From NCBI GenBank assembly GCA_963924555.1, contig OZ004591.1:2852001-2916000 (forward strand): a stretch of 64,000 nucleotides of DNA, read 5' to 3'. The position numbers and the translations under genes are program-made. The notes beneath the pieces are model-generated. The model worked only from the letters and a program-made list of their open reading frames with translations, searched no databases and was not told the DNA's origin. Shown here one piece after another: positions 42,601 to 48,600 of this stretch; within the stretch, counting starts at the first letter, position 1, and each line of letters begins with the position of its first letter. The stretch comes from Crambe crambe. Lineage: Eukaryota > Porifera > Demospongiae > Poecilosclerida > Crambeidae.

Positions 42601-45600
42601 TCATACATACGTACTAACATTACTGCTTCTTTTCGTGGTTACCTTTGATAAACTGAGCATGTACACTCACCCCACAATTCTTGCATTTCCCTAGTAGGGA
42701 AAAATACTATGAATAGGGTTACATCTTCCCCCACTCAATCGATTGTGAAAATATACTGATCCTTAAATCTCCCAAAGTTTTTACCAAGCAAATGCTGTAT
42801 ATGTAGCATGTTTTTTTAACTACTAATAGGAAGTTGTTGTATTTCTGTAAGATACACATCGTTTACTTTGCTAAAGAGGACTTACATCATTGGAGAACCA
42901 AAGGTCTTTATAGTGGCATTCCCCTTGGTTGAAAATCCTGAAGCCTAAACTCAGGACTGCATCTAAGATTGTAGGCTAGAGAGAGGAGGGGGAGGGGGAA
43001 CAAGGACAAGTAGCCCTATTCTGGGTCAGAGCAAGGCATGGGATGATATTTTATTACTTATAGTTTTGGATTGAGTTAGACTCTCACTGTGTTACTGCCA
43101 TATATTTGCAGTGGTATTATTGCTGACAGACTAAACCTGCGCTACTTTTTAACCACTGGGATGCTTGGTAAGTTCCTATGGATACGAGACTACATAATAA
43201 TGTTAATACCCAATGCAAAAGCAGCATAGTGATACTAATAGTCATGTGGTCACTATAGCTTCCAACCACAGGTAAGTATGAGATGTCTAAGCTTTGTTCT
43301 CTAATTTGACCTCATATCTCCCCCCTTTTCCCCCAGTGGCAGAAAGACATAGAGAAGTAATGCTATTCATTCATTCATAACTGCACCTGTCCATTGTGTA
43401 TAGGTAGTGGATTAAGTGTGTGTCTCTTGGGAGTGGCGTACTTTGCTCAAATTCACCACTTTGCCTATTTCGTAGTAGTGCAAATCTTTGGAGGGATCAT
43501 GCAGGTGCGTATCAATGTCGAAATCTAGCTATAAGAATATTAGCTCCCTCTCTCCCTCCCCCTTCCTTCCCCTTCCCCCTCCCCCTCCAAGTTTACCAGA
43601 GTCCCCAACAGAGAGAGAATCCTGTTCCTATTAACCCATATTGTTTTTGTGCAGTCCACTGGTTGGCCAGGATCAGTAGCAGTTATGACTCACTGGTTTG
43701 GGAAACACAAGTGAGTGTAAATCGTTAGAGTGAAGATGGGTAGGATGGTTTATTTATAACAGGTCCAATAGGCTCAAGGGACCGGGTCCAAGGGTGCCAA
43801 TAGCCTCAAGGGACGAGGCCTTCCAGTCTAAAGGGACTCTGTTCTGAACTCTTCTATGAGAATCCAAGGGGTCTTTGAATATATCAATTTATACTATCTC
43901 TATTGCCGTCTTTGCGGCATCTGTGCTTCCCATGTCATCAGTTCCCTATCTTCAGCTGTTTCAATAATGGTGATGTTGGAGAAAAGTCCAGGTCCCGATA
44001 GACTCATGGTACTACGTCCCAATTAATTGCAAGAATCCAATCAGTAATAAGGAGGTTTCCAATATACATTGCTTATCTTTTACAAATCTCTCTCTCTCTC
44101 TCTCTCTCTCTCTCTCTCTCTCTCTCTCTCTCTCTCTCTCTCTCTCTCTCTCTCTCTCTCTCTCTCTCTCTCTCTCTCTCTCTCGTCAAAAGTCGTGGTC
44201 TGATCATGGGCATTTGGAATTCTCACACATCTGTGGGTAACATCCTTGGAGCAATTCTTCCTTCCTTCTGGGCAACTTGCAATGAGAAGACAAGTCCATG
44301 GGGGTGGTCTTTCTTCCTCCCAGGATTCATCACTCTCTTTATTGGTGTTTTGATCTACTTATTTCTTGTGACAGATCCGGTCTATGTTGGAGTCCCTCCG
44401 CCCATCCAACACTTGGTCAGCAGTAATGGTACACCGTCACTAACTTCAGCTCCAGATTTAGCCTCATACCCAGGACTTTTTTTTTTTGGGGGGGGAGAGA
44501 GAGAGAGAGAGAGAGAGAGAGAGAGAGATTTGGATTTGTCACAACATCCAGCCCAACACTGATCACATCATTGGGATAACCCAAAATTAATGAGTGTAAT
44601 CAGAGAGTGCGGTAGCACTCTCTATGTAGGGATGACTCGGACGGCCGCGCGCGCCGCCTATAGACTAATACAAAAGTGAAATTCCAGTTCCCCCACTTAG
44701 ACCTAACAAAAGCTACTGTGAATGATTATCCAGCCTACTAGAGCCTACTACAATGTGCAGACCAAGTTTCAGGACCAGGGAGCTTACCGTTTCAGAAATA
44801 CGGCAAGCAGGTAAATCGCTATATTCTTCTTCTTCTCTATTATTATTATTATTCTTCTTCTTATTATTCTTCTTAGACAACCATATCTCTCGAACCACTC
44901 AAGCTACAGCTATGATTTCTGGACAAATCCACTCCAAATTCTACGAACTACGATCTTTTCTACTCGTTGATCCTCGAAAGAGTCGATGAAAAAGGAGACA
45001 CTAAGGAGCACAGCACTCGACTAATTCAATTAGGAAGCCATCTTTTCTATAATACGCATGCGCATGTATTTGATATCCAATTATTCGAAATTATAATATT
45101 ATTCAGCTGCCTCTAGCTAGCTAGCTAGGTATAGGTACTAGGTATATGTAGCTAGAATAGTGATGATGATGATAGACTACTGTATCGACTCGGGGATTTA
45201 GATTCAACAAGGTAGACTCTATTTCAGCATCTTCTACCTCCACCTTGACTCGTTGATAGTGATTGGGCTGGTATGCTATTGGAGAACTATTCTTCTTTCA
45301 TCTGTCCCTGCATACACATAGAAGAATGAACTCTATACATAGCTAAAACCATAAAAGAGAGGAAAAAAAGACCAGGAACAAGTAAGGGAAAAAGCATTTC
45401 GTGAAATGAAAAAAGATGTAGGGATGACCACTGCACAAAAAAGTAAGGAAACAAGAAGGATGGAATCTTTGTTCTGTATATCCAGCCAACAATCCCTACA
45501 TGTACGTACATTACTACACTATAATCTGAAGCTACCCGACGTATATGTAGGGATTGTTGGCTGGATATACAGAACAAAGATTCCATCCTTCTTGTTTCCT

Positions 45601-48600
45601 TACTTTTTTGTGCAGTGGTCATCCCTACATCTTTTTTCATTTCACGAAATGCTTTTTCCCTTATACTAAAGTGAAATTCTAGTTCTCCCACTTAGACCTA
45701 ACAAAAGCTACTGTGAATGATTATCCAGCCTACTAGAGCCTACTACAATGTGCAGACCAAGTTTCAGGACCAGGGAGCTTACCGTTTCAGAAATACGGCA
45801 AGCAGGTAAATCGCTATATTCTTCTTCTTCTCTACTATTCTTAGACAACCATATCTCTCGAACCACTCAAGCTACAGCCATGATTTCTGGACAAATCCAC
45901 TCCAAATTCTACCAATTACGATCTTTTCTACTCGTTGATCCTCGAAAGAGTCGATGAAAAAGGAGACACTATGGAGCACAGCACTCGACTAATTCAATTA
46001 GGAAGCCATCTTTTCTATAATACGCATGCGCATATATTTGAATATCCAATTATTCGAAATCATAATATTACTCAGCTGTCTCTAGCTAGCTAGCTAGCTC
46101 TAGCTCTGGATAATGATGATGATAGACTACCGGTACTGTATCGATTCGGGGATTTAGATTCACCATGGTAGACTCTATTTCAGCATCTTCGACCTCCAAG
46201 TATGGCTCAACAACACAACACCTTGACTCGATAATGATTGGGCTGGTGTGCTATTGGAGAACTATTGGAGAACTTCTTTCATCTGTCCCTGCATACACAT
46301 AGAAGAATGAACTCTAATCATAGCTAAAACCATAAAAGAGAGGAAAAAAGACCAGGAACAAGTAAGGGAAAAAGCATTTCGTGAAATGAAAAAAAGATGT
46401 AGGGATGACCACTGCTCAAAAAAGTAAGGAAACAAGAAGGATGGAAATGGGATCAATCTTTGTTCTGTATATCCAGCCAACAATCCCTACATATACGTCG
46501 GGTAACTTCAGATTATAGTGTAGTAATGTACGTATATGTAGGGATTGTTGGCTGGATATACAGAACAAAGATTGATCCCATTTCCATCCTTCTTGTTTCC
46601 TTACTTTTTTGAGCAGTGGTCATCCCTACATCTTTTTTTCATTTCACGAAATGCTTTTTCCCTTATTATTATTATTATTATTATTATTATTATTATTCTT
46701 AGACAACCATATCTCTCGAACCACTCAAGCTACAGCCATGATTTCTGGACAAATCCACTCCAAATTCTACCAACTACGATCTTTTCTACTCGTTGATCCT
46801 CGAAAGAGTCGATGAAAAAGGAGACACTATGGAGCACAGCACTCGACTAATTCAATTAGGAAGCCATCTTTTCTATAATACGCATGCGCATGTATTTGAA
46901 TATCCAATTATTCGAAATCATAATATTACTCAGCTGTCTCTAGCTAGCTAGCTAGCTAGCTCTAGCTGATGATAGACTACTGTATCGATTCGGGGATTTG
47001 GATTCACCATGGTAGACTCTATTTCAGCATCTTCGACCTCCAAGTATGGCTCAACAACACAACACCTTGACTCGATAAATGATTGGGCTGGTATGCTATT
47101 GGAGAACTTCTTTCATCTGTCCCTGCATACACATAGAAGAATGAACTCTAATCATAGCTAAAACCAGAAAAGAGAGGAAAAAAGACCAGGAACAAGTAAG
47201 GGAAAAAGTATTTCGTGAAATGAAAAAAAAAATGTAGGGATGACCACTGCTCAAAAAAGTAAGGAAACAAGAAGGATGGAAATGGGATCAATCTTTGTTC
47301 TGTATATCCAGCCAACAATCCCTACATATACGTCAGGTAACTTCAGATTATAGTGTAGTAATGTGTGTATATGTAGGGATTGTTGGCTGGATATACAGAA
47401 CAAAGATTGATCCCATTTCCATCCTTCTTGTTTCCTTACTTTTTTGAGCAGTGGTCATCCCTACATCTTTTTTTCATTTCACGAAATGCTTTTTCCCTTA
47501 CTTGTATAAGATGGGTGGGTGGGAGTGAAGGTTGTGTTCTTCTCAGAGCACTTTGCCTATAGCTACTGCACATCAACACTCTTTGCTTACATGTTTCAAA
47601 GTTCCTAGCTATAGAGTGAAGTTAAGGAAAGAGATAATCCTTTGAACATGCTGTCTAAAATACCTGTGGTCCATGCATACATGATACATTGTGTCTAGAG
47701 CTAGCTACCTTCTTTTTTTTCTTTTTTCAGGAGGATAATTTGACGAATCTTGATAACAGGACCCATTCTGCTCCTCATTCAAAACATGAGGGAGATGATG
47801 ATCAGTTGCTAGCTGATACAGACGAAACTACTGGCTTGATTGAAGAAGACAGGGAAGGAGAAGAAATCTCTAGACCACAAAAGGTCACTTATTATTATGC
47901 TCAAAAAAATACAGAGCCTGGACACAGCTGAGTGTCATATATTTATGCTTGTTTTGCAGGAAAAGGCAGAAGCCATCAATTTTTTTAGAGCTTTCATGAT
48001 ACCAGTAAGATTTCTGTAGGACTACGGGATTTATGCATGATTTCACAGTATAGGGGGTAAACAACGAATTATAGGTGAAGTTGTTATTGTTATTATTGTT
48101 GTTATTGTTTTCTGGGAGGGTCATGTCTGCTTGTTTTACTTATTAAATATTTTAGGGAGTAATGGAATTTTCTTTAGCACTTTTCTTCAATAAGCTAGTG
48201 AGTTACAGTTTCCTATACTGGCTGCCTTTCTACATCAAGGTGACACGTAAGTTCAAACAAGTATTAACAAGTTTGTCTTCAAAAAGACCTGTGCCTTGGC
48301 ACTGGTAGAATATGAGGTAGTACAGTGCACACTGTTGAAATTCAATTCTAGCTAAGCTTATGTATATAAAACATCAAATGAAATTCGAGTTAGTCAGTGC
48401 CCTCTGATTGGCTTTTCAAATATTCACTTCCATGCAAGGCCTGTAGTTGATCTCATTGTTCTTGCCTTTCCCATCATCTGACATGACATGTGGTGTCTCT
48501 GTTCTTTCTCTCTCTCGGTGTTCTTGGCTTTCCTGTTGCCAGCTAGCCTGTCTTAAGCTTTCTTCACGATTAGACTGCTGTTTCTGCTGTTACTGTTCTT

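Follow-up and report, generated by a model that had tools for sequence, protein, structure and literature searches.

Copies of a mobile element in the genome of the sponge Crambe crambe end in a long, nearly perfect hairpin whose central loop occurs in two opposite orientations. We analysed three such copies, units A, B and C, in a window of 64,000 nucleotides (C14:2852001-2916000 of the 143-Mb genome), together with their relatives elsewhere. The units belong to a non-autonomous Helitron-like (rolling-circle) family whose 3' terminus is itself a palindrome of about 280-305 nucleotides (nt). Relative to the element body the loop has been inverted more than once, and the same has happened in the larger palindrome of an autonomous Helitron in the window. 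We think it probable that the loop is turned by occasional exchange between the two hairpin arms and that its orientation is then inherited. The initial annotation had described a foldback element whose loop flipped between neighbouring copies; inversion of the loop is borne out, and the other two parts of that description are not.

Units A, B and C are head-to-tail direct repeats with a long hairpin at the end of each (coordinates in Table 1). Corresponding hairpin parts lie 981-1002 nt apart between the first two units and 834-835 nt apart between the next two. Folding with RNA parameters pairs 262 of 281 bases in hairpin A, 288 of 303 in B and 284 of 304 in C. The arms, first put at more than 115 bp, reach that length in A (125) and B (136), but in C the strictly matching arm is 108 nt. 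When the units are aligned, the reverse complement of the A loop differs from the B loop at one position of the 31-nt core (GGTAGC versus GGTAAC) and from the C loop at two core positions, with other differences at the edge; the C and B loops differ by one core base and two edge bases. The A loop is therefore the reverse complement of the others, as first claimed. Such a match of A and B over 31 nt is not chance, which we judged rather than computed. The loop sequence originally quoted for both B and C does not fit C exactly, whose loop reads TATACGTCAGG...GTGTGTATA. Nor can the array alone tell us whether only the loop was turned, as was proposed: the bodies are indeed not inverted, but because the arms of each hairpin are nearly identical, inversion of the loop and inversion of the whole hairpin look the same.

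What kind of element is this? Body and hairpin together form a dispersed element of about 1.1 kb that runs from ATCAGAGAGTGCGGTAGCACTCTCT... through the end of the hairpin. A body search (best 40 candidates scored, 49 matches) defined the family, and the statistics on ends and flanks come from the first 56 merged loci, a few of whose elements are segmental duplicates of one another. With the 5' TC as search anchor, the preceding base is A in all 42 elements with both ends seen. Clean 3' ends are followed by T in 72 of 73 elements, after CTTA in 47 and CTTG in 25. We joined the flanks of 22 of the 42 two-ended elements and compared them with other sampled genome sequence. Two clean, ungapped empty sites were found, that of C21:1196796 (100% over 79 nt across the junction) and that of C10:1709134 (98% over 150 nt); two further junction-spanning matches are gapped and less clear. 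Together with the A and T flanks, the two clean sites indicate that the element inserts between A and T and that target sequence is neither duplicated nor lost, as in Helitrons. Foldback elements of the P superfamily (Galileo-like) make target-site duplications of several bases. A foldback or miniature inverted-repeat element with target duplication is ruled out by the two empty sites, which show none. A TA duplication would fit the CTTA ends; it is ruled out by the CTTG ends and the C21 site. The element at C10:1709134, one of the flipped copies, has inserted into a sequence of which the same locus also holds an inverted copy. The two copies appear to be the arms of another palindrome, whose outer motif is similar, and the inverted copy supplied the empty site.

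The family departs from the classic Helitron at its 3' end. Parts of the literature at hand place a 16-20-nt hairpin about 11 nt before a CTRR end (PMC4067079). Here there is no such short hairpin; the palindrome of 280-305 nt forms the terminus itself, and the end is CTTA or CTTG rather than strictly CTRR. Because a giant terminal palindrome replaces the short hairpin, we call the family Helitron-like, a variant.

The window also holds an autonomous Helitron. Its Rep frame carries HFH at amino acid 930 and YYVTAYVTK at amino acid 1070, which correspond to the HUH and two-tyrosine motifs; with its PIF1-type helicase, the element has the proteins expected of a Helitron. Genome-wide there are 67 Helitron_like_N matches (fragments of single copies counted separately, and two matches under the cut-off), of which some twenty lie within open frames roughly 2,000-2,500 amino acids long; the longest single frame has 2,498. 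Downstream of the Helitron frames lies a palindrome with 159-nt arms (99% identical) and a 464-nt loop. For 23 other autonomous copies, same-strand similarity extends to the palindrome's far end; in 20 of them it stops within query positions 2149-2156, at CCCTTA or CCCTTACTTG(T), and in three it continues 4-12 nt further. The autonomous element and the A/B/C family thus have the same two types of 3' end, and the outer arms of their palindromes align at 81-83% over 52-53 nt. The large loop also occurs in both orientations: among the best 40 of 919 candidates, read from the match table, 27 copies including that of the window are alike, ten are inverted and three could not be scored. Three copies were read directly against the window's copy. 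The loop is inverted in L110 (loop 96.3% identical, upstream sequence 99.3%) and in L112 (94.5% and 95.6%), and not inverted in L111 (95.4% and 99.7%).

In the A/B/C family both orientations are common, as a genome survey of the kind suggested in the initial annotation makes plain. Patterns anchored in the end of the body match at least 269 copies in B orientation and at least 204 in A orientation (201 under an earlier gap range), and reversed control patterns match none; the two patterns are unequally sensitive, and that for B overlooks part of the B copies, being restricted to the TAAC loop allele. A smaller sample of 125 body-hairpin units contains 79 B, 40 A and 6 unscored. It was directed: L001-L008 are the first matches of a loop 15-mer, L009-L038 were taken by similarity to the unit B body and L039-L068 by similarity to hairpin B, L070-L089 for long arms in A orientation, L090-L098 for A orientation with short matches and L099-L109 for B orientation. 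Its ratios are therefore not frequencies, which come from the genome pattern counts.

The sample shows how orientation is distributed over lineages. The final body tree has 99 copies; it leaves out 20 of the 119 loop-scored units, 16 whose bodies are truncated or very divergent and four hairpins with two bodies, among them the A-oriented 281-nt hairpins C6:537345 and C3:537771. On it, orientation changes at least 13 times, a parsimony minimum obtained from directed sampling on a tree in which many branches are weak. In 500 shuffles of the labels the mean was 26.7 changes and the minimum 19. Orientation is thus inherited, yet has changed more than once. Earlier trees of 85 and 115 units gave at least 7 and at least 17 changes, both with truncated bodies and very long branches. 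Segmental duplicates keep their orientation, as in a group of four hairpins on C5 that recurs at a distance of 56,848 bp; such cases were spotted by eye and not in a systematic search.

The clearest inversions are found between close relatives. C5:7260376 (A) and C13:3728720 (B) have hairpins that agree at 303 of 303 positions after reverse complementation, on bodies with two mismatches and three gaps in 536 positions. C10:1709134 (A) and C13:3727889 (B) likewise agree at 303 of 303, with five mismatches and five gaps in 533 positions of body. In the four flipped long-arm copies C5:7260376, C5:7381933, C10:1709134 and C16:1437144 the loop allele is the one that prevails in their B relatives, and the bodies of the cleanest flipped copies are about 1-2% from unflipped ones. 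The spacer is thus inverted between relatives while the flanks stay, as expected of arm exchange.

Where the arms differ from one another, the differing bases give hints of how far the turned segment reaches. At inner-arm position 136 the altered base lies on the right in 31 B copies but on the left in three A copies. For position 135 the counts are 36 B copies (right) and two A copies (left); for position 131, six A copies (left) and two B copies (right). Asymmetric inner-arm bases mostly travel with the loop. Outer-arm substitutions common to A and B copies, indels left out, are on the same side at positions 7, 12, 19, 99, 119 and 126, swapped at 26 and mixed at 71. This is a hint that inversion is limited to the inner part, recurrent mutation being an alternative.

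Changes in the two arms also go hand in hand. Across positions 1-130 in 106 elements, 28 substitutions are present in both arms of one element; when arms were re-paired at random between elements (2000 rounds), the mean was 1.4 shared substitutions and the maximum 8. Such homogenisation is what arm exchange predicts. Among 60 distinct arm substitutions, 13 affect both arms in one or more elements and 47 never do. A 10-nt deletion, the mark of the short-arm hairpins, is carried by 15 elements, 14 A-oriented and one, C12:5608890, B-oriented, and every one of them has it in both arms. Shared changes of this kind require transfer from arm to arm, in part followed by inheritance from ancestors already converted.

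How might a loop be turned round while the body beside it stays in place? We propose that the two arms occasionally exchange sequence, through a template switch of the DNA polymerase or through crossover or gene conversion. Such an exchange would copy one arm into the other and, where it spans the centre, would turn the loop and the innermost arm bases round. Elements would then multiply with whichever orientation they have, so that orientation would become a heritable subfamily marker with occasional flips. There are precedents in the parts of two reports on which we draw. In yeast, template switching between inverted-repeat arms homogenises the arms and inverts their spacers reversibly (PMC8604942), and in rRNA genes as well as one microRNA gene template switching inverts the loops of hairpins (PMC8794818). 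The likeness is in the homogenised arms and the inverted spacer or loop; the present case differs in its arms of 125-159 nt and in its setting, a multicopy transposon. Exchange between the arms, which the initial annotation suggested in the form of recombination or gene conversion, best accounts for the cleanest flipped copies, while some other changes look more like replacement of the hairpin.

Several points weigh against this explanation. Template switching, crossover and cruciform processing could each have left the pattern seen, and exchange between the arms is itself what we infer from that pattern. The flips are read from assembled sequence, and that flipping could still be happening, as first suggested, is no more than a possibility. 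Loops of 31 and about 464 nt exceed those in the portions of the template-switch literature cited, where inverted spacers are 2-5 nt in yeast (PMC8604942) and inverted rRNA loops are typically 4 and up to 7-8 nt (PMC8794818). The altered base at position 135 is on the right arm in two A copies, contrary to the rule, and the count of flips is the minimum described above. The autonomous element appears to start with GTACAGTT after GTT, not with TC after A, and 14 other copies start there (query 2626-2627); since this 5' end is unlike that of the A/B/C family, the partnership of the two is drawn from the 3' end. The true 5' end of the autonomous element may lie elsewhere; no 5' ATCAGAG end was found for the window's copy in L069, which reaches about 3.4 kb past the window. 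Finally, some hairpins do not match their bodies. C8:6493271 (in L065) joins a body of the short-arm clade to a 301-nt, CAGG-type hairpin in B orientation, the loop alleles of C6:7026516 and C14:1732615 are not those prevailing among the copies nearest to them in body sequence, and C10:6643842 carries TAAC where the short-arm copies around it carry TAGC. Replacement of whole hairpins, or recombination between copies, probably lies behind part of the 13 changes.

These last cases bear on the rival that survives best, in which whole hairpins are swapped among dispersed copies by gene conversion or recombination and the flips are only apparent. Because a palindrome pairs with itself both ways, a swap could occur in either alignment. 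There are many near-identical dispersed copies, C8:6493271 shows that hairpins can be exchanged between copies, and hairpin alleles unfit for their bodies led us to raise the standing of this rival and lower that of arm exchange. As a general account we nevertheless consider replacement unlikely. In each of the four cleanest flipped copies the loop allele is that of its own body lineage, and two of these copies have a hairpin that matches a B relative's, read backwards, at 303 of 303 positions. Any donor would then need to come from that very lineage and be copied in reverse, a process no different in effect from inversion.

In a bolder scenario the flip happens during transposition itself. 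The 3' palindrome of a single-stranded DNA intermediate would fold, prime its own synthesis and be resolved as a reverse complement of the whole, as in the flip and flop of parvoviruses. The palindrome is exactly terminal, the encoded Rep has the HUH motif, the arms remain near-identical and both orientations have reached the numbers given above. Facing bodies with a single common hairpin also occur, as tail-to-tail dimers: exactly at C13:2077461-2077780, and with a mismatch at C6:5895135. Hairpin transfer in every round predicts roughly equal orientations within each subfamily. Orientation is not randomised in this way; it clusters on the body tree, which disfavours an obligate flip at each transposition. 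Dimers with a shared hairpin are rare, one exact place in a strict search, and outer-arm marks mostly keep their side in A and B copies, favouring inversion of the inner part (though recurrent mutation could contribute). We regard this scenario as slightly less plausible even than hairpin replacement. Just as doubtful is a softer form of it, a Helitron lineage with a giant palindrome in place of the stop hairpin whose HUH Rep or single-stranded intermediate sometimes carries out hairpin transfer, part-way to rolling-hairpin replication. Its terminal position and HUH Rep make hairpin transfer worth testing.

The flip between neighbours first read from the array fares worse. It would make the units tandem duplicates in which the loop of A, or those of B and C, turned after duplication, and the units are indeed direct repeats with only the hairpin inverted. 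The bodies tell otherwise. That of unit A is 96.1-96.2% identical to those of B and C, with 18-19 mismatches and 11 gaps, and its six nearest relatives are all A-oriented copies elsewhere, 99.1-100% identical (gaps uncounted). B and C share 98.8% identity; the six bodies nearest to B are all B-oriented, and those nearest to C are five B and one A. The 10-nt double-arm deletion of A and its arm and loop substitutions recur in dispersed A-oriented copies, and all 14 sampled 281-nt hairpins are A-oriented. Three of the 14 have a divergent body or fall outside the main short-arm clade; one, C3:2084759, shows by its place outside it that the short-arm group is not strictly one clade. Membership of unit A in this dispersed, A-oriented short-arm subfamily means that its loop did not flip within the array, and on this ground we rejected flipping in place; the duplication scenario as a whole is very improbable. 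By their sequences, A (short-arm) and B and C (of long-arm subfamilies) are different lineages that now lie head to tail, their loop difference inherited. An assembly artefact is scarcely credible: palindromes are hard to sequence and assemble, but the flips follow lineages, both orientations occur at hundreds of places and in a second element family, and whole palindromes measure only 0.3-0.8 kb.

Exchange between the arms, the account we favour, relates these elements to several known systems. In the small inversions of plastomes the loop of a stem-loop flips between related genomes; those are organelle stem-loops, unlike the end of a mobile element studied here. Foldback transposons such as Galileo and Tetris share very long inverted repeats and tandem arrays with our elements, in which, by contrast, the inverted repeat occupies one terminus of a longer element inserted between A and T without target duplication. 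The terminal hairpins of parvoviruses, which rely on an HUH nuclease, have a palindrome centre in two orientations, flip and flop. A terminal palindrome with its centre in two orientations and an HUH nuclease are found here too, but orientation is inherited by lineage, not randomised in each round, and a self-primed, covalently closed intermediate like that of a rolling-hairpin terminus would be hypothetical.

Among Helitrons, the parts of the Helraiser (Helibat1) report available to us provide the closest comparison (PMC4778049). An HUH two-tyrosine Rep with a PIF1-type helicase, insertion between A and T without duplication, a 5' TC (here in the non-autonomous family) and a palindrome at the 3' end are common to both. 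In Helraiser, as there described, a 19-bp palindrome lies 11 nt from a CTAG end; in the sponge the 3' terminus is a palindrome of 280-305 nt, or about 780 nt in the autonomous element, the ends are CTTA or CTTG, and the loop occurs in two orientations. We found no report of a loop flip in Helitrons in the open-licence literature searched. Several hundred dispersed close copies with heritable bodies amount to a natural experiment on arm identity and spacer turning. Elements of Helitron type that end in palindromes of 0.3-0.8 kb also raise the question of how Rep recognises such an end and terminates transfer there. The short 3' hairpin of Helraiser is described as a transposition stop signal (PMC4778049), and one may ask whether the giant palindrome could act likewise.

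Table 1. Features of the array and of related elements in the window (positions within the 64,000 nucleotides)
Feature	Position	Strand	Remarks
Body of element A, to hairpin	44600..45382	+	5' end TCAGAGAGTGCGGTAGCACTCTCT..., host A at 44599; same start point in dispersed copies
Hairpin A, 281-nt 3'-terminal palindrome	45383..45663	+	short-arm subfamily, A loop orientation; arms 45383-45507 and 45539-45663 (125 nt, 99%)
Loop of A	45508..45538	+	31 nt; reverse complement of B/C loop
Body of element B	45664..46362	+	intact 5' terminus absent here
Hairpin B, 303-nt 3'-terminal palindrome	46363..46665	+	B loop orientation; perfect arms 46363-46498 and 46530-46665 (136 nt, 100%)
Loop of B	46499..46529	+	31 nt
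Body of element C	46666..47196	+	5'-truncated at TTA microsatellite
Hairpin C, 304-nt 3'-terminal palindrome (47197-47500) and CTTG	47197..47504	+	host T at 47505; longest near-perfect arms 47224-47331 and 47367-47474 (108 nt, 99%), 35 nt between
Loop of C	47332..47366	+	two inner positions unpaired
3'-terminal palindrome of autonomous Helitron	55147..55928	-	arms 55147-55305 and 55770-55928; loop 55306-55769; ends CCCTTACTTG, then T
Helitron PIF1 helicase and OTU protease open reading frame	57182..60226	-	Pfam PF05970 1.3e-22, PF02338 3.5e-19
Helitron Rep open reading frame, continues past window	60154..63999	-	PF14214 (Helitron_like_N) 3.6e-29; HUH and two-tyrosine motifs
Older decayed copy of non-autonomous element	24309..25239	+	body 78%, hairpin arm 84%

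Just upstream of the array, at 44002-44562, a fragment of coding sequence weakly resembles MFS transporters (PF07690, 29.2 bits, below the cut-off of 33.4); the array may lie in an intron. Elsewhere in the genome (L062, L033, L012 and others) there are tandem arrays of the first 250 nt or so of the element, up to the TTA/TTC microsatellite, or of the part after the microsatellite with the hairpin; their breakpoints coincide with, or come close to, the microsatellite and the 3'-terminal TTA. Another inverted repeat in the window, at 54422-54641, starts with ACAAGTGAGCACAAAA and contains GTAGGGATGGCC, and may represent a further family with a similar terminal palindrome. Lone copies of the terminal motif (AGAGAGTGC..GCACTCTCT beside GAT) at 2378-2403, 37291-37322 and 52783-52818 are probably the ends of other families that have this terminal hairpin.

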